From Phycisphaeraceae bacterium (lineage in GTDB: Bacteria; Planctomycetota; Phycisphaerae; Phycisphaerales; SM1A02): a DNA stretch of 64,000 bases. Within the stretch, counting starts at the first letter, position 1. Every line of letters starts with the position of its first letter. The notes under the pieces are model-generated. The model made no database searches. It was not told the DNA's origin and saw only the letters and a list, made by a program, of their open reading frames with translations. Location of the stretch: positions 248,001 to 312,000 of the forward strand of contig JAHBWZ010000006.1 in the NCBI GenBank assembly GCA_019636755.1. Reading direction: 5' to 3'. The translations under genes were made by a program, and so were the position numbers. Below are positions 428 to 16,460 of this stretch, in pieces.

Positions 428-521
428 GGGCGTGTCGAGGAAGGATCGGCATCCGGCCGGATTCCGCATGAGGCGGAGAATCGACGGGACCGCGCCGGGA
501 TTCGCCGATGAGTCCAGCGAC

Positions 522-3167
522 ATGTCCGCCGCCACCGGATACCGCCGTCCTCGCGCCCGCCACGACGCCTTCCCACGGACCGCCGTCCTCCTGGCAGCGC
601 TGGTCGCTGTACCGACGGCGATCCCGGACCCCGGCGCCGCGGACGCCGGGCCGCGCTCCCGCCTGGTCCGGTCCTTCGACTTCGAGGATGCGGAGCGCCT
701 GCCGATGACGTTCCCCCGTCCGTTCACGAACCTGGCCGACCGGTTCGGTGGCGGGCGGCTGGGCCGGATGGCGCTCAGCCGCGACGAGGCCGCGAGCGGC
801 CGCTGGTCCCTGCTCTTCGAGCCGGACGGGGCGTCGCTGGGTGCCGGCATTCCTCCCGGCGAGATCCCGGTCGTCCCGTTCGCAGACCACCGCGTCCGGA
901 TCCTCGTCCGCACGCGCGACCTCACGCGGGGCGGGGCGCGACTTGCAGGCCGACTGCATCGCGCCGACGGCTCGATCATCGCCGCGAGCGAACGGGTCTC
1001 GCCCCCGGTACGTGCCGAGGAGGCATGGACCGAGATCGCGATCATCGTCCCGGGGGACGACCCGGCGGCCGCCCACCTCTCGGTGGACCTCCTGGTGACC
1101 CAGCCCGCCCTGCTCGAACCCGGGCGCCCGACACCCCCGGAAATCCGGGGGCGTGCATGGTTCGACGACCTCACCATCACGATCGAACCGCGCGTCACGC
1201 TGACGCCGGCGGACGCGACCGGGATGGTGGACTCCGGTGCCGGGTCGGCGCTTCGCCTGGAGGTGCGCGACGCCGTCCACGAGTCGCTCACGGCCTCGCT
1301 GGAGATCCGCGATGCGCTCGGGAGCGTCGTGCATCGGCTGACGACGCCCTGTCCCCGCTCCGGGGCTCCCGTCGACCTGCCCGTCCCGCCGCTGCCGCCC
1401 GGCTGGTACGAAGCGGTCAGCCGCGTGCGGTCGATCGACGGGCTGCTCGCACAGCGCGCGGTCCGCTTCACCGTCCTCCCGGCGCCCCGCACCCGGAGCA
1501 GCGGAACGCCTGCCTTCGCGGTGTATCTCGCCGCGGATGGCGCCGACCCGGCCATGACCGCCGCGCGCGCCCGCGGGCTCGGCGTCCGTGATGCGCTGCT
1601 GGAGATTCCGCCGGGCGCTGCGGCCGCGCCCGAGACGCGCTCGGCCACGGCGCTCACCAGCCGGACCGCGGAGTCGATCTCGCGCGCCGACCTGGATCCC
1701 GGGTTCGTCCTTCCGCAGACGCCACCCGAGCAGGCGCACCCGCGCATCGAGTCGCTCCTGACCGACCCGATCTTCCGGGCGCGTTTCTGGCAATACGGCG
1801 CCGCGGACTTCTCCACGGAGCGCGTGCCGTCATCGCACCGGCTCGAGGATGCGGAGCGCGTGCTGCTCGGCGTGCACCACGATGCGCGCATCGTCCATCC
1901 CGTCAGCGTGCTGGCGGATCCCGAGGCCATCCGCGCGGAGACGCCGCTGGCCATCATGATTCCCAGAGCGCTGCGCCCGTCGGAGATCCCCGATGCGCTG
2001 GCGCCGTGGTTCCGCAGGCATGCGATCGACCTCGTGGCGCTGGAATCACTGGAGGGGACCGCGGTCAGCCCGGCCGACATCTCGATCGATCTCGCCGAGC
2101 GCATGCTGTTCGCCTGGGCCGCCGGCGCCCCGGTCCTGGCCATGCGAGCCCCGTGGCGCGCGACCGGACAGCCCGGGACCGACGCGGTCACCATCGAACC
2201 CACCCCTGCCTTCGCCGTCTTCCGCGGCGTCTCGGACGTGCTGTCCGGACGACGGTTCGGCGGCGAACTGCCGATGGAGCCGGGACTCCGCGCGTGGGTG
2301 GCGCTCGGAACCGATGCGGCGCACCACGCCCTCATCCTGTTCCGCGATCCCGACGGGGGGCGGTCCGTGGACTCCATCGAACTGCCGATCCACGCAGGCG
2401 GCGCCGTCGATGCCGTCGGCGCCGAGGTCGACCTGCACGGCGGGCGCCTTGCCCTTCCGCACCTGCCCGTCTTCTGCGAATCGATCGACGTACCGCTCGC
2501 CCGCTTCCACGCGACCGCGCGCCTCGACCCGCCGGTCGTCGATGCCGCGGAGCGCAGCCGCGCCCACCTGCTGATCCTGGAGAACCACTGGTCGTCCGCC
2601 ATCACCGGGACCGCGCTGCTGGAGTCCGTCGACGGCATCCGCGTCGATCCCGCCAGGCTCTCGTTCTCGCTGCTGCCGGGCGAGCGCGCCGAACTGCCGG
2701 TGCACCTCCTCGCGGAGCGCACGCCGATCGCCGGCCGGCGCCGTGTGCAGGCGACCGTCCGGCTGGACGGCGAGCGTTCCATGCCCGTCCGCCTGTCGCT
2801 GCCCGTCGAGGTCTCCTGGCCGGACGTCGGTCTCGCGGCGCGCTGGCGTCATGAACCCGATGGACGTCGCGCGGTCCGAATGCTCGTGACGAACCGCGGT
2901 GACCGCGCGATCGACCTGGAGGGCTTCGTCATCGGCACGGACTACCGGGTGGAACGGCGCATGATCGGTCGCGTCCCACCGGGACGGACCGTGCAGCGCC
3001 TGATCCCCGTCCCGTCGACGTTCCTGCCGCCGGAGGGCGGCGCGATCCTGGTGGGCATCGCGGACCTGGACGGACCGGGCCGGATCGGTCACCTGCTCGA
3101 GGTCCGGTCCCTGCGCCGGGACCGGTTCACCGCAGCCCCGGGAGATCCGACGGCGCCCGACCGTTGA
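522..3167 (+). CDS. Large secreted multidomain protein of unknown activity
   Basis: The chosen start at 522 gives 881 residues. The frame is open further upstream, but the ATG at 522 places a basic, then hydrophobic signal peptide (TAVLLAALVAVPTAI) at the N-terminus, and the extra upstream sequence looks non-coding. After the signal come a beta-sandwich-like region (about 45-220, possibly carbohydrate binding) and an Ig-like stretch ending in LPPGWYEAVSRVRS. The central region (about 330-600) could be a degenerate barrel. The C-terminal part resembles the NEW3/NPCBM-associated beta domain (LLPGERAELPVHL). No catalytic motif is clear. Its 3' end overlaps the convergent gene at 3127-3732 by 41 bases. 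Likely periplasmic or surface located; the function is not assigned. Confidence 0.7.
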   Translation: MSAATGYRRPRARHDAFPRTAVLLAALVAVPTAIPDPGAADAGPRSRLVRSFDFEDAERLPMTFPRPFTNLADRFGGGRLGRMALSRDEAASGRWSLLFEPDGASLGAGIPPGEIPVVPFADHRVRILVRTRDLTRGGARLAGRLHRADGSIIAASERVSPPVRAEEAWTEIAIIVPGDDPAAAHLSVDLLVTQPALLEPGRPTPPEIRGRAWFDDLTITIEPRVTLTPADATGMVDSGAGSALRLEVRDAVHESLTASLEIRDALGSVVHRLTTPCPRSGAPVDLPVPPLPPGWYEAVSRVRSIDGLLAQRAVRFTVLPAPRTRSSGTPAFAVYLAADGADPAMTAARARGLGVRDALLEIPPGAAAAPETRSATALTSRTAESISRADLDPGFVLPQTPPEQAHPRIESLLTDPIFRARFWQYGAADFSTERVPSSHRLEDAERVLLGVHHDARIVHPVSVLADPEAIRAETPLAIMIPRALRPSEIPDALAPWFRRHAIDLVALESLEGTAVSPADISIDLAERMLFAWAAGAPVLAMRAPWRATGQPGTDAVTIEPTPAFAVFRGVSDVLSGRRFGGELPMEPGLRAWVALGTDAAHHALILFRDPDGGRSVDSIELPIHAGGAVDAVGAEVDLHGGRLALPHLPVFCESIDVPLARFHATARLDPPVVDAAERSRAHLLILENHWSSAITGTALLESVDGIRVDPARLSFSLLPGERAELPVHLLAERTPIAGRRRVQATVRLDGERSMPVRLSLPVEVSWPDVGLAARWRHEPDGRRAVRMLVTNRGDRAIDLEGFVIGTDYRVERRMIGRVPPGRTVQRLIPVPSTFLPPEGGAILVGIADLDGPGRIGHLLEVRSLRRDRFTAAPGDPTAPDR

Positions 3168-3773: not shown

Positions 3774-6700
3774 ATGACGCTCGCCCTCGACACCGGCCTC
3801 CTCGACGCGAACCTCGCTGCACTCGGCGAGCGACATCGCGACCTGGCGGATCGGCTCCGCGCGGCACCCGCGCCGCGCGACCTCCGGCTCGACCGGCTGG
3901 CCGACGGCGCCTGGACCGGGACATGCGACGGCGTCCGGCTGGCCAGTGCGCGCGACCCGATCGGCGAGGGCGCCCGCCTCGCGGCCGCCGTCGATGTGCT
4001 GGATGCCGCGGCCTTCTTCGTGATGGGATTCGGACTCGGACACCACGTGCGGGCACTGGCGGAGCGACTCGGTCGAGCGGGCATCATCGTCGTCTTCGAG
4101 CCCGACCTCGGACTGCTGCGCGAGGTGTTCTCGACGTGCGACCTCTCGGGCTGGATGAAGGAGACGCTGCTCGTCCTCGTGACCGACGCGGACGATCCCG
4201 CGGAGCTGGGCACCCGTCTCTCCGGCGCCGAGTCCGTGCTCGGCCAGGGCGTGACGTTCGTCGAGCATCCCCCCAGCCGCCGCCGGCTGGAGCCCTTCGC
4301 CGCCCGCTTCCGCGCCCGCGTCGCGGAACACCTCGTCACCGTGCAGACGGCCCTCATGACGACGCTGGTCCGCTCCGTGGAGACCGTGCGGAACGTCACG
4401 CTCAACCTGCCGTGGCTCGTGGACGGCCCCGGCATCGTCGACCTTGCCGGCGCCGCGCAGGGCGCGCCGGCGATCGTCATCTCCGCCGGGCCGAGCCTCT
4501 GCCGGACGATCGATCGCCTTGCCGACCCCGCCGTACGCGACACCTGCGTCCTCATCGCCGCGCAGACCACGCTCAAGCCCCTGCTTGCCCGCGGCATCCG
4601 GCCGCATTTCGTCACCGCGCTCGACTACCACGAGATCTCGACCAGATTCTACGAAGGGCTGACGCGCGACGAACTCGACGGCATCACGCTCGTCTGCGAC
4701 CCCAAGGCGCATCCTCGCATCCCGGAGGCGTTCGCCGGACTCGTCCGCTGCTTCTCCATTCCGCTCACCGACGAACTGCTCGCGCAGTCGGTGCCCTCGC
4801 GCGGCTGCCTGCCGCCCGGCGCGACCGTCGCACACCTGTCGCTCTACCTGGCGGAGTACCTGGGCTGCCGCGCCGTCGCGCTTGTCGGCCAGGATCTCGG
4901 CTTCCCCGAGGCGCTCTACTACGCGCCCGGCACGGCCATCCATGACGTCTGGACGCCTGAACTCGGCCCCTTCTGCACGATCGCGATGAAGGAGTGGGAG
5001 CGGATCGCGCGGCATCGCGCGCTGCTGCACCGCCGGATGGACGTCGCGGGCCGTCCGATCTACACGGACACGCAGATGCTGGCGTACCTGATGCAGTTCG
5101 AACGCGACTTTGCGCGCCTCCGCGAGCGCGGCGTGCAGGTCTTCGACGCCACCGGCGGCGGCGTCGCCAAGGCGGGCGCGCCCGCGCTTCCGCTCGCCCG
5201 GTTCCTGGAGCGCCACGCGACGCGCCCGCTGCCGTTCGACCCGGGCGGCGTGCACGGCGCCGCCGCGGCGTCGCGGCGCGACCCGCACCGCGGTGCCGCC
5301 GGACGCCGTCCCGCGCGGGACGCGGCGATCCGCCGGCTGCGCGAAGTCGACCGGTCGATGCAGGACCTCGCCGCCTCCGCGGGGCGCACGGAGGACCTTC
5401 TCGATCGGCTCGGCGGCGTGCTCGGCAACGCTCGTGCCGAGGAACCGCTGCACACCGCCATCGACGCCGAGCGCGCCCGCGTGGAACAGAATCTCGCGGC
5501 ACTCGACCTTCTCAATCATCTCAACCAGCTCGGCGTCTTCAAGCGGACGCAGGCGGACCGCCGCATCCAGCTGCTCGCCCGCGAGCGATCCGCGCGGGAA
5601 CACCAGGAGGCGCAGCTGGCGCGCGACCGCGTCAACGTGCAGTGGATCCGCGCCGCCGCGGAGGAGATGTCGCGGCAGGTCCGACTGGCCCGCGCGCGGC
5701 TCGAGGGACGGTCCGTCCCGCTGCCGCGCGGCGGTGGCGGCATGCCTCGGGGCGCGAGCGCCGTCTCCGTCGGCCGCGAGCCCGCGCGACTCGGCGCGGT
5801 CGTCGCCGTGGATCCGGTCCGCGGCGGGACCGGTGCGCCGCGACGCCTGGAGGCGCCGTTCGGAGAATCGACGGTATTCCGCAGCACGCTGGAGGCACTG
5901 GATCGGGTCGCCGGGCTGGAACGCACCATCCTGCTCCTGCCCGACGACATCGATCGAGGACTGGTGGAGGCGCTGCGCGGATTCAGCCGGCCGGTCACGA
6001 CCGAGTTCATCCCGGGCGGCCCGTTCTCCGCGGAACAGCGCGCCATCGCGGTCGCCCGCCGGTTCGGCGAGCGCGCCTGGCGCGGCGGCATCGCCGGATT
6101 GACGGCCTGGGACGAGGTGCTCGCGCCGGCCCCGAGCCTCGGCGCCCTGGAGCGGCACGGCCTCGACGGCGCGGTCATCGCGGGCCCGGACTGGGCACGC
6201 CTCGATCCGCGCCTGACCGGCGAGGTCGTCGCACGCTTCCGCGAGGATCCGGCGGCACAGCCGTTCGTCTTCGCGCAGGCGCCGCCCGGACTCGCCGGCG
6301 CGGTCGTGTCGCGTTCGCTGCTGGCCGGCCTCGCCGGCGGGCGCCATCGACTGGCGACGCTCGGGGCGCTGCTGGGCTGTCAGCCCGGTCGGCCGAGGCC
6401 GGACCCGATCGTCTCCCGCGCCTGCATCACGACGGACCATCGCATCCGCGGCGCGCTCCTCCGCGCGATCGCGGATGATGCGGCGCGATCCGGGATGCTT
6501 GCCCGCGGGCGGGTCGACGATGACGACGCGCTGGCGGACATGCTGGCCGCGGCCGCCGCACTCGCGCCGCCGTTGCCGCGACATGTCGTCCTCGAGCTGA
6601 CCGAACGCCGGACCGAGCGCGGCGTCCTCGGCCGAGGCACCGGCGCCAGGGACCTGGACCGGTCGATCGCGGCCCGCGTGATCGCCGACGTCGCCGCCGG

Positions 6701-7373
6701 CGGAGCGACCGCGCTCACGCTGGGCGGTCGCGGCGATCCGCTGCTCCATCCCGCGTTCATGGAGTGCGTCCGCCAGGCGAAGGCGGCGGGCATCGCTGCC
6801 ATCCATGTGCGCACCGCGCTGTCCCGCGACAGCGATGTCGGGACGCTGCTGGACGCCGGGGTGGACGTGGTGAGCGTGCTCCTGCACGCGGACACGGACG
6901 CGACACTGCACGAAATGCGCGGCGGAGAATCGATGTCGGCGCTGCTCGCCCGCATCGAGCGCCTGGTCACCGGTCGCACGATCCTCGCCGGCACCGACGC
7001 ATGGTCCGGACTGGCGCTTCCATGGATCGTTCCGGTCCTGGAGCGGCGCGCGGAGACCCTGGGTGACCTCGAAGCCTTCTATGACCGCTGGCAGCACGGC
7101 CTGGGCACTGCCGTCATCGAGTCCGCGCACAACGGTGCAGGCCCCGCGCTCCGGGCGGACGGCCTGATCGAAGCCGTCACGCCGCGCCGCCACCTCGAGC
7201 GGGAGTCCTCGGAGCGACTGTACATCCGCGCCGACGGCGTCGTACCCGTGTGCGAGATCGACGCGCAGGCCGGCGAGCTTCCGCTGGACCGTCCGCTGGC
7301 GGAACTCTGGCCGGATCTTCTCGCGGCGCGGCAGGCCCGCACCGTCGGCGGCCTCGCGATGGTGCATCCATGA
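3774..7373 (+). CDS. MAF/DUF115 protein fused to degenerate NTase-like and radical-SAM-like domains
   Basis: The start is the ATG at 3774 (1199 residues). Residues about 190-430 match the motility accessory factor/DUF115 family (6-hydroxymethylpterin diphosphokinase MptE-like), with the SAGPSL motif at 237-242, LDYHEIS and VGQDLGFPEALYY. These proteins are linked to transfer of nonulosonic acids onto flagellins in other bacteria. A charged helical, coiled-coil-like region (about 515-640) follows. Next is a stretch resembling a sugar nucleotidyltransferase fold (from about 672, GAVVAVDPVRGG). The C-terminal part has the layout of a radical SAM/SPASM protein: ELTERRTERG where ELTxRCN is expected, LTLGGRGDPLLHP from about 982, and IRADGVVPVCEID near 1150. 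The Fe-S cysteines are absent. The stop overlaps the next start as ATGA, so it is translationally coupled to neuA/neuB and neuC functions. Confidence 0.85.
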   Translation: MTLALDTGLLDANLAALGERHRDLADRLRAAPAPRDLRLDRLADGAWTGTCDGVRLASARDPIGEGARLAAAVDVLDAAAFFVMGFGLGHHVRALAERLGRAGIIVVFEPDLGLLREVFSTCDLSGWMKETLLVLVTDADDPAELGTRLSGAESVLGQGVTFVEHPPSRRRLEPFAARFRARVAEHLVTVQTALMTTLVRSVETVRNVTLNLPWLVDGPGIVDLAGAAQGAPAIVISAGPSLCRTIDRLADPAVRDTCVLIAAQTTLKPLLARGIRPHFVTALDYHEISTRFYEGLTRDELDGITLVCDPKAHPRIPEAFAGLVRCFSIPLTDELLAQSVPSRGCLPPGATVAHLSLYLAEYLGCRAVALVGQDLGFPEALYYAPGTAIHDVWTPELGPFCTIAMKEWERIARHRALLHRRMDVAGRPIYTDTQMLAYLMQFERDFARLRERGVQVFDATGGGVAKAGAPALPLARFLERHATRPLPFDPGGVHGAAAASRRDPHRGAAGRRPARDAAIRRLREVDRSMQDLAASAGRTEDLLDRLGGVLGNARAEEPLHTAIDAERARVEQNLAALDLLNHLNQLGVFKRTQADRRIQLLARERSAREHQEAQLARDRVNVQWIRAAAEEMSRQVRLARARLEGRSVPLPRGGGGMPRGASAVSVGREPARLGAVVAVDPVRGGTGAPRRLEAPFGESTVFRSTLEALDRVAGLERTILLLPDDIDRGLVEALRGFSRPVTTEFIPGGPFSAEQRAIAVARRFGERAWRGGIAGLTAWDEVLAPAPSLGALERHGLDGAVIAGPDWARLDPRLTGEVVARFREDPAAQPFVFAQAPPGLAGAVVSRSLLAGLAGGRHRLATLGALLGCQPGRPRPDPIVSRACITTDHRIRGALLRAIADDAARSGMLARGRVDDDDALADMLAAAAALAPPLPRHVVLELTERRTERGVLGRGTGARDLDRSIAARVIADVAAGGATALTLGGRGDPLLHPAFMECVRQAKAAGIAAIHVRTALSRDSDVGTLLDAGVDVVSVLLHADTDATLHEMRGGESMSALLARIERLVTGRTILAGTDAWSGLALPWIVPVLERRAETLGDLEAFYDRWQHGLGTAVIESAHNGAGPALRADGLIEAVTPRRHLERESSERLYIRADGVVPVCEIDAQAGELPLDRPLAELWPDLLAARQARTVGGLAMVHP

Positions 7374-9100
7374 GCATGCCGCGCACGCTGGCGATCGTGA
7401 TCGGCCGCGCCGGCAGCCGCGGACTCCCGGGCAAGAACGCCCTCCCCCTGCTCGGCATCCCGCTCGTCCTGCACAGCGTCGTCGCGGCCCGCGGCTCGCG
7501 CCATGTCTCGCAGGTGATCGTGTCGACCGATGGCGCCGCGATCGCGGACGCCGCCCGCCGCGCAGACGTGCCCGTGATCGCCCGTCCCGCCGCGCTCGCC
7601 ACCGACACCGCGACGGTGGCCTCGGCGGCGCGTCACGCGCTGCAGCAGTCCGCGGACCCGGCGCCGATCATCGTGATCCTGTACGCGAACGTCCCGGTGC
7701 GCCCCGCGGGCCTGATCGACGAGGCGATCGAACTGCTCCTGCATTCCGGTGCGGACAGCGTTCAGTCCTACGCCCCGGTGGGCAGGCACCACCCGCTCTG
7801 GGCGGTGTCTCTGGATGATCGCGGTCGCGTCACGCCGTACGCACAGGGGCGCATCGACCGCCGGCAGGACCTGCCCGTGCTCCACTTCCCCGACGGCGGC
7901 GTGATCGCGGTCCGGCGGGAGTTTCTCCTGGCCGAGGATCACGGCGACCCGCACGCGTTCTTCGGCCAGGATCGTCGCGGCATCGTCACGGCGCCCGGTG
8001 CAGTCGTCGATGTCGACACCGCCGCGGACCTGGAACTGGCGGCCGCCACCCTGCGCGGCGTGCGCGGGCGTGCCCTCGGCGTCGGCGCGCGCCGCATCGG
8101 TCCGCAGGAACCACCGTTCGTCATCGCGGAGATCGGGGTCAATCACGACGGAAGCCGTGAACGCATGGTCGAACTGGTCATCGCCGCCGCCCGCGCGGGC
8201 GCCGATGCCGTCAAGACCCAGTACTTCCGGGCCGACCTCCTGCTCGGTCGGGACGCCGGGCTCACGCAGGCACAGACGCGGTCGGGCGCCGCCTCCGCCC
8301 CGGCGATGCTCCGCGCGCTGGAACTCTCCGACCAGGATCTGGTCGTCTTCTGCGAGACTGCGCGCGCCGAGGGACTGGAGCCGATCGTGACCGTCTTCTC
8401 GCCGGAACTCGTCGGCGCGGCGGCGGCGGCGCGGCCCGAAGCGTGGAAGATCGCGTCACCGGATCTGGTCAATCGACCGCTGCTGGACGCGCTCCTGGAG
8501 CACCCGCGCCCGATGCTCGTGAGCACCGGCGCGTCGGAGCCGTTCGAGATCCTCGAGACCGCGGGCTGGCTCGCGCGCGTTCCCCACGCGTTCCTGCAGT
8601 GCGTGAGTGCCTATCCGACCGCGCCGGAGCACGCCGCCCTGGGCGGGATCACGGCGCTGCGTGACCTGCTCGGCGATCCGGTGGGATACTCCGATCACAC
8701 CACGCTCATCGAGACCGGCGCCCTCGCCGTCGCGGCCGGTGCCGCGATGCTGGAGAAGCACCTGACCTGGTCGACGACCGCGCCGGGTCCCGACCACGCC
8801 ACCTCCCTGACGCCGGATGCCCTCGCCCGGTACGTGCAGCAGGCGCGATGCGCCTGGGCGATGCGCGGCGCGGAGAGCAAGCACACCGCCGCGGTGGAAC
8901 TGGAGGTCCGCCGGCTCTGCCGGCAGTCGGTGATCCTCGCCCGCCCGGTGGCCGCCGGCGCCGTCCTGGGCGCGGGTGATCTCGCGGTCCGCCGACCGGG
9001 CACCGGCATGCCCGCCGCGCGGATCACGGCCGTCATCGGTCGCACGGTCACGCGCGACGTCGATGCAGGCGAGACGCTGTGCGAGGATGACCTCGCATGA
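7370..9100 (+). CDS. Fused CMP-nonulosonate cytidylyltransferase (NeuA) and nonulosonate synthase (NeuB)
   Basis: 576 residues from the ATG at 7370, which overlaps the preceding stop (ATGA). Residues 1 to about 230 form a NeuA-type cytidylyltransferase: the nucleotide-binding loop GRAGSRGLPGKN is near residue 12, followed by VIVSTDGAAIADAA and an acidic DVDTAADLE end. Residues about 243-576 form a NeuB-type synthase condensing phosphoenolpyruvate with an N-acyl hexosamine: IAEIGVNHDG, KTQYF, VGYSDHTT and LEKHLT, closing with the SAF (antifreeze-like) domain RRPGTGMP. The enzyme would make and then CMP-activate a sialic-, legionaminic- or related acid in the cytoplasm. NeuA and NeuB are usually separate polypeptides, so the fusion is notable. 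The exact sugar cannot be read from sequence. The next gene overlaps by ATGA. Confidence 0.92.
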   Translation: MSMPRTLAIVIGRAGSRGLPGKNALPLLGIPLVLHSVVAARGSRHVSQVIVSTDGAAIADAARRADVPVIARPAALATDTATVASAARHALQQSADPAPIIVILYANVPVRPAGLIDEAIELLLHSGADSVQSYAPVGRHHPLWAVSLDDRGRVTPYAQGRIDRRQDLPVLHFPDGGVIAVRREFLLAEDHGDPHAFFGQDRRGIVTAPGAVVDVDTAADLELAAATLRGVRGRALGVGARRIGPQEPPFVIAEIGVNHDGSRERMVELVIAAARAGADAVKTQYFRADLLLGRDAGLTQAQTRSGAASAPAMLRALELSDQDLVVFCETARAEGLEPIVTVFSPELVGAAAAARPEAWKIASPDLVNRPLLDALLEHPRPMLVSTGASEPFEILETAGWLARVPHAFLQCVSAYPTAPEHAALGGITALRDLLGDPVGYSDHTTLIETGALAVAAGAAMLEKHLTWSTTAPGPDHATSLTPDALARYVQQARCAWAMRGAESKHTAAVELEVRRLCRQSVILARPVAAGAVLGAGDLAVRRPGTGMPAARITAVIGRTVTRDVDAGETLCEDDLA

Positions 9101-10221
9101 CGATGTTCACGCGGGTCGACGTGGTGACCGGCTCGCGCGCGGACTTCGGCCTGCTCCGGCCGGTCCTCAGCGCCATCCGGGACTCGAAGAGCCTGGTCCT
9201 GCGCACCGTCGTCACCGGGACGCATCTTCTTCCGCCGCAGTGCACCGTCGACGAGGTCGCGGAGGCCTTCGAGATCGCGGCGACGATCCCGATGCAGGAA
9301 CCCGGCGTCACCGACCGTCCCGGTGATGCCGAGGCCCTCGCGCGCGGCATGACCGGGTTCGCCGCGCGCTACCGAGCCGATCCTCCCGACCTGGTCGTGG
9401 TCCTGGGAGACCGGATCGAGGCGTTCGCCGCGGCCGCGACGGCCGCGGTCGCCGGCGTGCGCGTCGCCCACCTGCACGGCGGCGATCGCGCCGAGGGCAT
9501 CGCCGACGAAGGGCTGCGCCATGCGATCTCGAAGCTCGCCCACCTGCACCTGGCCGCGACCTCGCGCTCGGTGGAGCGGCTGATCGCGATGGGCGAGGAT
9601 CCCTGGCGCATCCGCCTGGTCGGGTCGCCCGCCATCGACGGCCTGGTCGCAGTGCCGGCCCTCGACGACGCTGCCTATGCGTCGCTCGGTCGACCGGAGA
9701 TCGTGATCCTGCTCCATCCCTCGGGCGAATCTCCGGCCCTTGAGCGCACGCGCGCCGCGGACCTCGTCATGCTCTGCGCCGACCGGGGCCGGACGCTCGT
9801 GCTGGATCCGAACCACGACCCCGGCCGGGAGGCGATCCTGGCCGGCATCACCGATGCCTCCGCGCACCGCGCCATCCACCGCACGCCGCACCTGCCGCGA
9901 GATCGCTTCATCGGCCTGCTCCGGCGCATCCGCGTGCTGGCTGGCAACAGCAGCGCCGGGCTGATCGAGGCCGCCGCGATCCCGGTGCGCAGCGTGGACA
10001 TCGGGGCGCGCCAGGCCGGACGGGAAGCGGCGGGGAACGCGATCCGCGTGCCGTCGTGGGACCTGACGGGACTCGCCCGCGCCCTTGAACGGGCGATGGG
10101 TGAACCGCTGCTTCCGATACGGCATCCGTATGGCGACGGCCACGCCGGCGAGCGCGTCGCCGCGATCATCACGGCCGGTGGTCCGGAAACGTACCCGCTG
10201 GCGAAGCGGAACACGTACTGA
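9097..10221 (+). CDS. neuC: Hydrolysing UDP-sugar 2-epimerase, NeuC/LegG type
   Basis: 374 residues starting in an ATGA overlap with the NeuA-NeuB gene. The family splits UDP-GlcNAc (NeuC) or UDP-diacetamido-bacillosamine (LegG) into UDP and the free manno-configured sugar used by NeuB. Visible features are the N-terminal GSRADFGLLRPVL nucleotide-binding motif, DLVVVLGDRIEA, the HLHGGDRAEGIADEG active-site stretch and the C-terminal GNSSAGLIEAAAI loop. Length fits the family (about 370-390). It completes the minimal route from UDP-sugar to CMP-nonulosonate with the upstream gene, and the Maf protein is the likely consumer. No dehydratase, aminotransferase or acetyltransferase for legionaminate is in the cluster, so N-acetylneuraminate is possible, or the precursor genes lie elsewhere. 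Confidence 0.9.
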   Translation: MTMFTRVDVVTGSRADFGLLRPVLSAIRDSKSLVLRTVVTGTHLLPPQCTVDEVAEAFEIAATIPMQEPGVTDRPGDAEALARGMTGFAARYRADPPDLVVVLGDRIEAFAAAATAAVAGVRVAHLHGGDRAEGIADEGLRHAISKLAHLHLAATSRSVERLIAMGEDPWRIRLVGSPAIDGLVAVPALDDAAYASLGRPEIVILLHPSGESPALERTRAADLVMLCADRGRTLVLDPNHDPGREAILAGITDASAHRAIHRTPHLPRDRFIGLLRRIRVLAGNSSAGLIEAAAIPVRSVDIGARQAGREAAGNAIRVPSWDLTGLARALERAMGEPLLPIRHPYGDGHAGERVAAIITAGGPETYPLAKRNTY

Positions 10222-12664: not shown

Positions 12665-13429
12665 TCAGTCGCGCAGCGACGCATCCAGCGGGTAGTGCCT
12701 GTCGGCAAGTTCCACCAGCGCCTCGCGGAACAGCCGTGCGCAGTGCTCCAGCGCCGCGTCATGCGTCATGGCGGGCGAGCGGCGGATCACGGTCTCGATC
12801 TTCGAGAAGTAGGTGTACCGATCACCCGGCATGGCCATGAGGAGTCGCAGTCGCTCCCGGTCGTGCACGATGCGCCCGTTGTGATAGAACGCGTACGCCA
12901 CGGTCACCAGGTCGCCTCCCGTGGCGATGTCGAGCGTGCGGATGGTGACCGGCGAGTCCGCCCGCCCCGGGATCTCCACCGGCATCGTGTCCATGTTCCG
13001 GACCTCGCCCCCCGCCTGCCGGTAGCAGACCTCCGGCGTGTGCGGAATCGTGTCCTCCGGATCGCTGTAGTACGTCACGAAGAGCACCAGGTAGTGTTCC
13101 GGCCGCTCGTCGAGCCGCTCCTGCGGGAGCGTGTAGATGAGCGTGAACATCTCCTCCGTGCCCACCCACTCCGGCCCCGATCCGACCACGCGGATGTCCG
13201 GGCGGTAATGAAACGTCCGGATCGACGATGCGTCGAAGTCGTGCAGCGACACGCGCAGGTCGATCGGTCTCTTTCCGTAGCGTTCGGCGACACGGCGCAT
13301 CCCCGTGGGCACGACGACGGCCGCGATCAGCAGGATGACCATCGCCGTGATGAAGGTCGTCCGTCCGGAGGATGATCCCGCCGCCCGGTCCGTCCGGTCC
13401 GTCGCGGTGCGTGCCGTCGGGCCGTTCAT
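12665..13429 (-). CDS. EpsI/DUF3485-like exosortase-associated protein
   Basis: 254 residues from the ATG at 13429, overlapping the stop of the upstream gene as ATGA. One N-terminal membrane anchor (TFITAMVILLIAAVVV, about residues 24-42) precedes an extracytoplasmic domain. The diagnostic stretch HTPEVCYRQAGGEV matches the conserved H-x-PE-x-C region of EpsI/DUF3485 proteins. These are found next to or fused with exosortases in EPS/PEP-CTERM systems. The downstream part has VEIPG and a VAYAFYHNGRIV strand typical of the family. It forms an operon with the exosortase-like gene and the sulfatase gene. Its biochemical function is not established for the family; a role in processing sorted proteins or polysaccharide is inferred. 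Confidence 0.85.
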   Translation of the reverse strand: MNGPTARTATDRTDRAAGSSSGRTTFITAMVILLIAAVVVPTGMRRVAERYGKRPIDLRVSLHDFDASSIRTFHYRPDIRVVGSGPEWVGTEEMFTLIYTLPQERLDERPEHYLVLFVTYYSDPEDTIPHTPEVCYRQAGGEVRNMDTMPVEIPGRADSPVTIRTLDIATGGDLVTVAYAFYHNGRIVHDRERLRLLMAMPGDRYTYFSKIETVIRRSPAMTHDAALEHCARLFREALVELADRHYPLDASLRD

Positions 13430-14379
13430 GCCGTCCCTCCTGCCCCGCCCGTTCCGGGCGCCGCGTCCTCCTTCACCACCAGCGCGTCGCCGATCGCCAT
13501 CACCAGGGCCGTCAGCAGCGCCGTCAGAACGATCGACGCCGCGCCGGTCACCAGCCTGGGCGCCTCCGCCCACGGATCCGGCTCGAGCGTGACGGACCAC
13601 ACGCCCCACGCGGCGAAACGCAGGAGGTTGCTGAGCAGGAGGATCGGCCCGAAACAGAGCAGGAACGCGACGATCGCTCCGACCCCGCGCGGTCGCGAGG
13701 CGACCAGGAAGATCTGCACGGCCAGCCCGGCCAGCAGCAGTGAGGCCCCTCGCGAAGGTTCACCCAGCGCGACGACGCCATGACGGCCGCCGCGCTCGAA
13801 GAAGATGTCGAGACCTTCCAGCGTCGCGCTCACGCCCGGCAGCAGGTCGAGCAGCATCGTCGTCGCGTGCAGTGTCAGCGTCTCCGGCACGATGATGACG
13901 CGGGCGTAGTAGCGTGTTCCGATCGGAATGGCGAGCCCCAGCAGCAGGAGCAGCGGAACGGCCCGGCGAAGCAGCGGCCAGCCGCCCGCCGCCAGCAGGA
14001 TCCCGGCCGAGATCACGACGATGGTGAGGAGACGGATCTGCAGGTAATTGAAGGGCCATGTCGCCACCGCGAAGGCCATGATGCCCGCCACGATGAGGAC
14101 GATGCCCGCGGGCGAGGACCGGCCGCACCGCACGGCGCGGATGAAATCCGCCTTCCGGAGCCACACGAGCAGCCCCATGAGCAGGGGCACCGCGATCGCC
14201 TGGGCATTCTGCGGCTGGGTGACGGCGCTCTCCACGATGAACCACAGGTACTCTCGGAAGAGGAGCATGAGCACCGCACCGAGCAGGAGGACCCGGACCA
14301 GGACCGTTCCCGGCGCGGTGCTCCCGGCGGCATGATCGGGAATCACGGTCGGCGCCTCGCCGCCTGCGCATGCCGCCAT
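13426..14379 (-). CDS. Exosortase-family membrane protein lacking an aligned catalytic Cys
   Basis: 317 residues from the ATG at 14379, which shares one base with the preceding stop (TGATG). About eight membrane segments are visible. The C-terminal part follows the exosortase layout: LLDLLPGVSATLEGLDIF, then GVVALGEPSRGASLLL, then SNLLRFAAWGVWSV with the conserved N-x-x-R, then EAPRLVTGAA. Exosortases are membrane transpeptidase-like enzymes that cleave PEP-CTERM signals using Cys, Arg and His. By eye, Pro falls where Cys is expected (EPS for ACS) and Arg where His is expected, while the Arg of N-x-x-R is kept. The EpsI-like gene next door supports the family call. It may be a divergent subfamily or a non-catalytic relative. 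Confidence 0.75.
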   Translation of the reverse strand: MAACAGGEAPTVIPDHAAGSTAPGTVLVRVLLLGAVLMLLFREYLWFIVESAVTQPQNAQAIAVPLLMGLLVWLRKADFIRAVRCGRSSPAGIVLIVAGIMAFAVATWPFNYLQIRLLTIVVISAGILLAAGGWPLLRRAVPLLLLLGLAIPIGTRYYARVIIVPETLTLHATTMLLDLLPGVSATLEGLDIFFERGGRHGVVALGEPSRGASLLLAGLAVQIFLVASRPRGVGAIVAFLLCFGPILLLSNLLRFAAWGVWSVTLEPDPWAEAPRLVTGAASIVLTALLTALVMAIGDALVVKEDAAPGTGGAGGTA

Positions 14380-16460
14380 CACTCCGCCTCCGGCGGATCG
14401 CGCAGGTAGTAGGCGCTCGCGGCGCGGCCCGTCGAGATCGTGCGCCAGTGGCGGTACACGATGCGCTCGCGCGATCGGTTGGGCGGGAACTCGATGCGGT
14501 TCGCGTCGAACCACGCGCCGAGTTCCGCCATGACCATCGCACGTTCGGCGCCGGAGACCTCCGTCGGAGCGCGCTCATCCGGATCGGCCGCGAGATCGAA
14601 GCGAAGCACAGATCCAGGTGCCGGCATGTGCAGGTACTTTGTCCGCCCCTGCACGAAGCCGGACGGGCTGCGCGCATACCACGAGAAGAAGAAGAGTCGC
14701 CGGTCCGCCGGCACTGCGCCCAGCGCGTCGAGGCCGTCGAATCCTGCCCGCGTGATGTCCCAGCCGAGGAGGCCGAGCACCGTCGGCGTGAGATCCATCT
14801 GCGAGGCGGTGACATCGATGACCTCGCCCGCCGGCAGCCGTCCCGGCCAGCGCATCACCCACGGAATGCGCACCACTTCCTCGAATCCGATCCAGCGGCC
14901 GCGGCGCGACTCCGGCCGGAAGCCCTCACCGTGGTCGCCCATGACGATGATCAGCGAGTCGTCGAGGATGCCTCGCGCCGCGAGCCGGTCGATCACCTCG
15001 CCGACGAATCGATCACCGAACTCGACCGTCTGGGCATAGCGCCCGTAGGGGCCCGCGGCGGGCTCGATGCCCACCCACGAGGGAAGCACGTAGGGGTCGT
15101 GCGATACCGTCGTGATCGCGCCGAGCAGGAAGGGACCGGGCTGCGCATCGACCCAGTCGAACATCGGGTCGAGCATCCGGTAGTCATCGCCACTCGTCCA
15201 TCCCAGGTGCGCGCCCGGATCCTCCAGGTTCTCGCGGAACCACGCCCAGTCGAACCCGAGATTCGCAAAGAGACCCGGCACGCCCTCCCACGGCCCGCGC
15301 GCCATCTGGAAGAACGAAGACGTGTATCCGTCCCGCCCGAGGATCGTCGCAAGACTCTCGTACGGCCGGTCCACCAGCACCGACTCCACCGCATCGCTGC
15401 GCAGGTCCGGGGTCACGCCCGTGAGCGCGGCCCAGAACGCCTTGGTCGTGTGCGGCACTGGGCAGTACGTCGGCCCGATCTCCACGCCCTCGGCCGCGAG
15501 GCGCGCCAGCACCGGCGTTTCGATCGGCCGGCGTCCCGGCGCGGGCGCTCCCAGGGACGTCGCGCCGTGCGACACGCTCTCCAGCATGATGAGCACGACA
15601 TTGGGCCGTGGCTTCGATGCCGCCGGCGGCGCCAGGTCGCGCGTGCCCGTGGCCGGTATGTCGCGCCCCGGGCGGGCGACGCGGCCCGGCTCGATGGATC
15701 CGACGATGGTGCGCAGCGCGTGCCAGTGACTGCTGAACCCGATGGACTCGCCCCACACCGTCGTCGCCGCCGGCGCGGATCCGCTGACCTGCAGGGCGAC
15801 GGCGCCGCCGAGCAGCACCGCGAATGCGCCGGCGCGCGTCGCGCGCCGGCGCCGGGCGGGATGAAAGGGCGCCGGCCTGAGCAGGCGCAGCAGCGTCCAG
15901 CCTCCGAAGGCGATGATGACGAGCACCGGGGCGAGAATGCGCGAGCCGTTCGCGACCAGGACGTCGCCGAGAATCAACTGCGTCTCCCGGAGATCCAGCA
16001 GCGCGGCGCGGATGACGCTCGGCTGGATCTGCGCGCCGGTCGAGAAGAGCCAGCCCGCGTTCAGGACCGACCACGCGGCCGCGATGCAGGCGATGAAGAT
16101 CGAGGCGCGGGCAACGAGACGTCCGGGATACGCCCACGAGGCCGCCGCGAGCACGCACCCGAGGCCGGCGAAGAAGAACAGGTCGGCCACCGCCGCCCGC
16201 GCGACTTCGTGCAGCAGCCCGTCCGACACATGCGGTCGCGCGATGACGGCCTTCGCCGCGACGGTTCCCAGCCACGACACCAGCAGGATCACGGTCTCCG
16301 TCCGCGGCAGGACCCCGAAGAGCCGGGCGGTCCATGCCGGCGCCGCACCCGGCCGCGCCCGGCCCGGCGCCGACGGACCGATGCCATCGAGGGCGACATC
16401 CGGCGCCGCGGCCCCGGTGCCGACCGGCATGCGGATCTCCGTTGGAACACGCTCATGCAT
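14379..16460 (-). CDS. LTA-synthase-like membrane sulfatase/phosphotransferase
   Basis: 693 residues from the ATG at 16460. The N-terminal third has about five membrane segments. From about residue 285 an alkaline-phosphatase-superfamily domain of the sulfatase/LtaS type is seen: NVVLIMLESVSHGA (metal ligand Glu), VPHTTKAFWAALTG with the candidate Thr nucleophile, and the metal site IIVMGDHGEGF. Such proteins transfer phospho-alcohol groups (LtaS, EptA, OpgB types) or cleave sulfate esters outside the membrane. Which reaction applies is not readable. It is first in a three-gene overlapping operon with the exosortase-like and EpsI-like genes, so an envelope or exopolysaccharide modification role is likely. 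Its promoter should lie in the 367-base divergent gap before 16828. Confidence 0.85.
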   Translation of the reverse strand: MHERVPTEIRMPVGTGAAAPDVALDGIGPSAPGRARPGAAPAWTARLFGVLPRTETVILLVSWLGTVAAKAVIARPHVSDGLLHEVARAAVADLFFFAGLGCVLAAASWAYPGRLVARASIFIACIAAAWSVLNAGWLFSTGAQIQPSVIRAALLDLRETQLILGDVLVANGSRILAPVLVIIAFGGWTLLRLLRPAPFHPARRRRATRAGAFAVLLGGAVALQVSGSAPAATTVWGESIGFSSHWHALRTIVGSIEPGRVARPGRDIPATGTRDLAPPAASKPRPNVVLIMLESVSHGATSLGAPAPGRRPIETPVLARLAAEGVEIGPTYCPVPHTTKAFWAALTGVTPDLRSDAVESVLVDRPYESLATILGRDGYTSSFFQMARGPWEGVPGLFANLGFDWAWFRENLEDPGAHLGWTSGDDYRMLDPMFDWVDAQPGPFLLGAITTVSHDPYVLPSWVGIEPAAGPYGRYAQTVEFGDRFVGEVIDRLAARGILDDSLIIVMGDHGEGFRPESRRGRWIGFEEVVRIPWVMRWPGRLPAGEVIDVTASQMDLTPTVLGLLGWDITRAGFDGLDALGAVPADRRLFFFSWYARSPSGFVQGRTKYLHMPAPGSVLRFDLAADPDERAPTEVSGAERAMVMAELGAWFDANRIEFPPNRSRERIVYRHWRTISTGRAASAYYLRDPPEAE

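Follow-up and report, generated by a model that had tools for sequence, protein, structure and literature searches.

A Maf flagellin glycosyltransferase of Phycisphaerales fused to a spiro-SPASM homologue without catalytic residues

Architecture of the fusion protein

We analysed a 64,000-nucleotide stretch of the genome of a Phycisphaeraceae bacterium (phylum Planctomycetota, order Phycisphaerales; contig JAHBWZ010000006.1, positions 248,001 to 312,000), hereafter the window. An open reading frame (ORF) at window positions 3774-7373 (+) runs without an internal stop for 1199 residues and encodes a protein present as a single copy in its genome. Matches to this protein occur in 76 of 101 related genomes, and because more than 40 of them cover most or all of its length, the reading frame is not a product of chance; these relatives, together with the substitution ratios given below, rule out an artefactual ORF. 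The protein comprises a complete Maf (DUF115) glycosyltransferase with a homologue of the spirochaete protein spiro-SPASM fused to its C terminus, and the two enzyme folds of that homologue lack their catalytic residues (Table 1).

The Maf part scores 102.8 bits against PF01973 (curated cut-off 34.6), and its predicted structure aligns to the solved Maf of Magnetospirillum magneticum (5mu5) with a Z score of 22.6 over 537 residues (root-mean-square deviation 7.1, model residues 5-661). All three domains of the solved enzyme are shared, but the Magnetospirillum protein stops where the additional 540-residue module of the window protein starts. Structure prediction for residues 641-1199 gave a mean predicted local distance difference test (pLDDT) score of 88 and a predicted template modelling (pTM) score of 0.89. 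Values for the whole chain were 88 and 0.87, the latter consistent with a definite arrangement of the module relative to Maf.

Fold searches identified the first half of the module as a cytidylyltransferase fold resembling SpsF-type and CMP (cytidine monophosphate)-sugar enzymes, including CMP-NeuAc synthetase, at Z scores of 14-18.6 (6oew, 18.5-18.6; CMP-Kdo synthetase, about 15). The second half, residues 930-1196, is a radical S-adenosylmethionine (SAM)/SPASM fold that matches SuiB (Z 20.4), MoaA (20.0) and PqqE (19.6), and the same part taken from the full-length model gave 20, 19 and 19, respectively. These SPASM radical SAM enzymes share the fold (Z 19-20), whereas the module lacks the radical-SAM cluster motif and retains one of four SPASM cysteines. 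On the window protein alone, the Pfam Radical_SAM model (PF04055) scores 19.1 bits, under its cut-off of 29.5.

An initial annotation, made from the DNA sequence, had proposed that one chain joins a Maf core, a sugar-nucleotide-like fold preceding the last third, and a dead radical-SAM fold. The predicted structure agrees, returning Maf (5mu5), cytidylyltransferase (6oew) and radical SAM/SPASM (SuiB, MoaA) in that order. The partial TIM barrel plus SPASM fold on which that proposal depended is present in the prediction, and profile comparison finds the radical SAM homology that it likewise presupposed. Its landmarks were also recovered with small shifts in numbering: ELTERRTERG, in the place of ELTxRCNxxC and put at about residue 935, occupies residues 941-950; the replacement of GGEPLL, put at about 982, is LTLGGRGDPLLHP; and the SPASM-like stretch ahead of an LxELW-type end is IRADGVVPVCEID at residues 1151-1163, followed by LAELW.

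Table 1 Features of the Maf fusion and the genes downstream, in window coordinates
Feature	Position	Strand	Remarks
Whole ORF: Maf, pseudo-cytidylyltransferase and pseudo-radical-SAM/SPASM	3774..7373	+	1199 aa
Maf (DUF115) flagellin glycosyltransferase with all three domains (N-terminal, central, C-terminal helical), residues 1-652	3774..5729	+	PF01973; 5mu5
Central MptE-like / Maf_flag10 catalytic domain, residues 207-379	4392..4910	+	Profile match
Linker of low confidence, residues 653-667	5730..5774	+	pLDDT <50 in full-length model
Cytidylyltransferase fold without RxxSxRLPxK nucleotide loop, residues 670-936	5781..6581	+	Conserved WRGG (769-772), DE (780-781), DW (806-807)
Radical-SAM-like partial barrel without CxxxCxxC, residues 930-1120	6561..7133	+	
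Lost cluster-motif site, residues 941-953	6594..6632	+	R946 invariant in order; alignment
LTLGGRGDPLLHP replacing the GGEP motif, residues 981-993	6714..6752	+	Alignment
SPASM-like domain, residues 1121-1196	7134..7361	+	C1160 is the sole remnant of four cluster cysteines
NeuA-type CMP-nonulosonate cytidylyltransferase joined to NeuB-type nonulosonate synthase	7370..9100	+	Start overlaps Maf stop (ATGA)
NeuC-type UDP-GlcNAc 2-epimerase	9097..10221	+	Start overlaps previous stop (ATGA); TIGR03568 274.6 bits, cut-off 235.9

Homology of the module to spiro-SPASM

The window protein itself scores 14 bits against the NCBIfam spiro-SPASM model TIGR04321, far below the cut-off of 250, and the best relative in its phylum reaches 159. 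Relatives elsewhere in the phylum nonetheless match TIGR04321 better than any other model (down to E 1.5e-46); they pass the Pfam SPASM cut-off, and five of eight tested pass that of PF04055. Profile-profile comparison (hhalign) of ten modules of the fused type with ten spirochaete spiro-SPASM proteins gave a probability of 99.5 and an E value of 5e-23 over 454 columns, the cytidylyltransferase part included. Since the match runs through that part, the C-terminal half is one inherited unit rather than two domains acquired separately. On this profile evidence, the module is a divergent, end-to-end homologue of spiro-SPASM, with an identical order of cytidylyltransferase-like, radical SAM and SPASM domains.

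In spirochaete genomes reached by a 16S pattern scan, a protein above the TIGR04321 cut-off occurs in 21 of 26. Their genes differ in setting from the window gene, adjoining SpsF-like and PseG-like genes rather than maf, and these neighbours point to a sugar-nucleotide pathway. At several such loci the intact spiro-SPASM gene lies between a SurA-like gene and the SpsF-like and PseG-like pair. Maf-type proteins are present in all 20 tested spirochaete genomes that carry spiro-SPASM, encoded by genes that are not adjacent to it.

A second NCBIfam family, TIGR04347, is named in its title as a pseudo-SAM/SPASM family and so provides a precedent by title. It shows weak similarity to relatives of the window protein (2.4e-11) but is outscored there by TIGR04321, and neither a Maf nor a cytidylyltransferase part was observed for it in this analysis.

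Loss of the cluster cysteines and the nucleotide loop

In an alignment with intact spiro-SPASM, the positions of the three radical-SAM cluster cysteines correspond to residues 946, 950 and 953 of the window protein, where it has Arg, Gly and Gly. None of the 67 aligned proteins of its phylum (48 from its order and 19 from outside it) has CxxxCxxC or any one of the three cysteines; these counts leave out one ordinary radical SAM protein that lacks a cytidylyltransferase part. The complete motif is kept in 17 of 20 Spirochaetota proteins. Both the loss of the iron-sulfur cysteines noted in the initial annotation and the retention of CxxxCxxC by active relatives, which it had put forward as a check, are therefore borne out. 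A separate loss of CxxxCxxC is seen in three Spirochaetota proteins of one clade, which keep the four SPASM cysteines.

The four SPASM cysteines follow a different distribution. Every one of the 20 spirochaete proteins has all four, as do essentially all of the 19 relatives from outside the order. Within the order, most split proteins, in which Maf and the module are separate genes, have them too; a complete set is found in none of the fused clade. In the tree, the fused proteins form one clade (34 rows; support of 100 in the Shimodaira-Hasegawa-like approximate likelihood ratio test) nested among split, cysteine-bearing relatives, and four secondarily split or shortened proteins inside the clade also lack the SPASM cysteines. 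The loss is stepwise, the radical-SAM cluster going first and the SPASM cluster later, in the fused clade. The tree was rooted by midpoint only, so this direction rests on cluster cysteines being lost more readily than regained. An independent fusion of Maf to the module, encoded by a 1174-aa ORF on the minus strand in a different family of the phylum, keeps all four SPASM cysteines, and its genome also carries a split Maf and module pair.

A displaced radical-SAM signature was sought and rejected: the phylum-wide set has no conserved cysteine column in the radical-SAM domain, scattered cysteine-rich matches occur in single rows only, and in the fused clade cysteine stays below two thirds in every column of the module. 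The same observations bear on whether the module could still function as a radical SAM enzyme, its cluster bound through alternative ligands or by a partner protein. The retained fold would suit such an enzyme, but with no conserved cysteines and with the GGEP and TNG motifs, both of which bind SAM, altered, we consider it very improbable.

The cytidylyltransferase fold is dead as well. Its RxxSxRLPxK loop has been lost from the proteins of the order, the phylum and the spirochaete family alike, and is kept in 13 of 13 neighbouring SpsF controls. The arginines of the loop survive in 2 of 48 order proteins at the first position and in 0 of 48 at the second, and the Asp of GDxP, shared with active enzymes of this fold, is kept in 46 of 48. 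Because the nucleotide loop is missing and an ordinary NeuA is encoded downstream, an active cytidylyltransferase supplying the donor is ruled out.

These results support several additions to the initial annotation, namely that the last two folds form one spiro-SPASM unit, that the nucleotidyltransferase fold is dead too, that the fusion is clade-wide with a separate gene beside maf elsewhere, and that the SPASM cysteines were lost after the radical-SAM ones.

Conservation of the former active sites

The vacated radical-SAM site is highly conserved within the order. Arginine stands at the first cluster-cysteine position (R946) in 48 of 48 proteins; at the former GGEP motif, where GEP has become GDP, G987 and D988 are each present in 48 of 48; and E941 and H992 are found in 48 and 45 of 48, respectively. 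In the cytidylyltransferase fold, all 29 fused proteins compared share R762, W769, R770, D780 and W807. Pairwise ratios of nonsynonymous to synonymous substitution rates (dN/dS; NG86 method) for the two dead folds are about 0.1-0.35, below 1 and near those of Maf, with several dS values near saturation; the SPASM part is more relaxed and evolves faster in the fused clade. An arginine fixed in 48 of 48, the change of GEP to GDP and a dN/dS below 1 together make the former radical-SAM site look rebuilt around fixed residues rather than decayed.

This conservation bears directly on the idea that the module is an evolutionary relic, a decaying enzyme kept merely through its fusion to Maf. The loss of active-site residues in three successive steps and the faster evolution of the SPASM part would suit decay. 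Against this, separate genes for cluster-less proteins are maintained throughout the phylum, dozens of residues are invariant, dN/dS is below 1, and in one lineage, described below, the module outlives Maf function. We therefore disfavour the relic explanation and regard it as improbable.

Gene neighbourhood and co-occurrence with flagellin

The gene order Maf, module, NeuA, NeuB, NeuC is found in almost all members of the order with enough flanking sequence, for fused and split modules alike. Beyond the order, a separate gene nearly always encodes the module; this gene usually follows maf, often directly. NeuA and NeuB are joined in one ORF in the window (7370-9100) and at two other loci, and are separate ORFs in most relatives. 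At seven loci, judged at the locus only, the cassette has no NeuB between NeuA and NeuC.

Flagellins are encoded in the genome of the window protein. Across the 101 genomes, 70 have both the protein and flagellin, six and six have one only and 19 have neither (Fisher p 1e-10, relatedness ignored); within the protein's own family the counts are 31, 6, 6 and 18 (p 8e-6, relatedness again ignored). Searches of PHROGs and phage records returned no match, and plasmid records returned ordinary radical SAM/SPASM proteins only.

Possible function of the module

Maf-type enzymes put sialic-acid-like sugars on flagella. They have no known sequon, the functions of their domains are unclear, and how they recognize flagellin is an open question (PMC11339370). 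In Caulobacter, the flagellin glycosyltransferase FlmG carries a separate domain that binds flagellin and gives flagellin specificity (PMC7591256).

The identity of the module is firm; for its role, we favour a non-catalytic binding or docking part for nonulosonate transfer to flagellin, in line with the scaffold or binding function hinted at in the initial annotation, and put the chances of this proposal at about even. It draws on the fold and order of the domains, the spiro-SPASM homology, the loss of clusters and loop, the conserved, seemingly rebuilt site, the cassette order, the co-occurrence with flagellin, the co-presence of Maf in spirochaetes and the FlmG precedent. If docking is correct, FlmG would be a functional parallel built from unrelated domains (TPR and GT-B). 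The NeuA, NeuB and NeuC enzymes encoded directly downstream would make and CMP-activate nonulosonic acid, which Maf is predicted to transfer onto flagellin in the cytoplasm. Close to the Maf active site, the module would hold either the acceptor (flagellin, alone or with its chaperone) or the charged donor. Contact would probably be made through the old radical-SAM pocket, in which Arg946 and Asp988 are fixed, and through the conserved WRGG/DE/DW residues on the surface of the cytidylyltransferase fold. Most planctomycete-type relatives would receive the docking partner in trans, from the neighbouring gene.

Several observations weigh against this proposal. In other bacteria, the standard three-domain Maf functions with no module of this kind. 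One subclade includes five genomes (G015, G024, G038, G051 and G057) that lack NeuA and NeuB, and four of the five have no flagellin match. In G015, G024, G038 and G057 a shortened Maf part no longer carries residues that are invariant elsewhere, including Q373, D284 and H286. The module in these four genomes wholly or nearly keeps R762, W769, D780, W807, E941, R946, D988, P989, P1087, R1091 and W1106. A pure helper of nonulosonate transfer would be expected to decay with Maf; an eroded Maf beside a maintained module, without NeuA or NeuB, argues for a role of the module that is independent of nonulosonate transfer, at least in these lineages. They weigh against a role limited to such transfer, and our confidence in docking goes no higher than an even balance for this reason. 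In the same subclade, the module gene runs directly into a LON-domain gene, which in the window sits further downstream.

The chief alternatives to docking are a ligand sensor and a non-radical enzyme. The survival of the module beyond Maf would also be accounted for if the dead folds were regulatory, binding a nucleotide, a CMP-sugar or another small ligand and thereby switching Maf on or off. The GDxP Asp kept in 46 of 48 order proteins, the dense cluster of invariant residues in the cytidylyltransferase fold and the new invariant Arg and Asp in the radical-SAM pocket, whose conservation fits a ligand, all suit a sensor, but the basic residues of the nucleotide loop are gone, and we rate sensing as the lesser prospect, at something over one chance in five. 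A continuing enzymatic role, in which non-radical chemistry at the rebuilt site would, for example, trim or modify nonulosonate or flagellin, seems unlikely to us, somewhat more so than sensing. Glu941, Arg946, Asp988, His992 and Thr1014 are invariant or nearly so in the old active site, and strong purifying selection and the persistence of the module where Maf decayed would be expected of an enzyme; the site is, however, without known precedent, and relatives outside the order lack Arg946 yet share the same gene context.

The tight conservation of two dead folds suggests that together they have taken on a binding or guiding task, and links spiro-SPASM to flagellum glycosylation. More tentatively, and with slightly less confidence than in docking itself, we picture phylum-wide double pseudoenzymes that descend from a still-active spirochaete radical SAM family, pass through a stage with the auxiliary SPASM cluster only and lose that cluster on fusion to Maf; their pocket would have been rebuilt around an invariant Arg and Asp with a function of its own, persisting where the glycosyltransferase decayed.

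Relation to known families and other genes of the window

Spirochaete spiro-SPASM proteins mostly keep CxxxCxxC and all keep the four SPASM cysteines, whereas the window protein has neither motif. Both halves of the protein are of known kinds. The new elements are their fusion, the loss of the radical-SAM cluster throughout the phylum while the auxiliary cluster was at first retained and later lost in turn, the apparently rebuilt site and the connection of spiro-SPASM with Maf. No description of the Maf-module fusion or of an association between spiro-SPASM and Maf was found in the literature searched, an absence that does not prove absence elsewhere. To our knowledge, radical SAM pseudoenzymes have rarely been documented. 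Here the stages stand side by side, from intact through loss of the radical cluster to loss of both clusters, and because the intermediate stages survive, the purpose of keeping a dead radical-SAM fold is directly testable. For the unexplained spiro-SPASM family, a relative in another phylum that is a constant neighbour or fused partner of a flagellin glycosyltransferase provides a first functional hint.

Elsewhere in the window, a long ORF without a Pfam match lies upstream of the Maf fusion (507-3164). On the minus strand, the region 12668-16460 holds an EpsH-type exosortase gene (13429-14400) beside a DUF3485 gene and a gene for a large sulfatase-domain protein.

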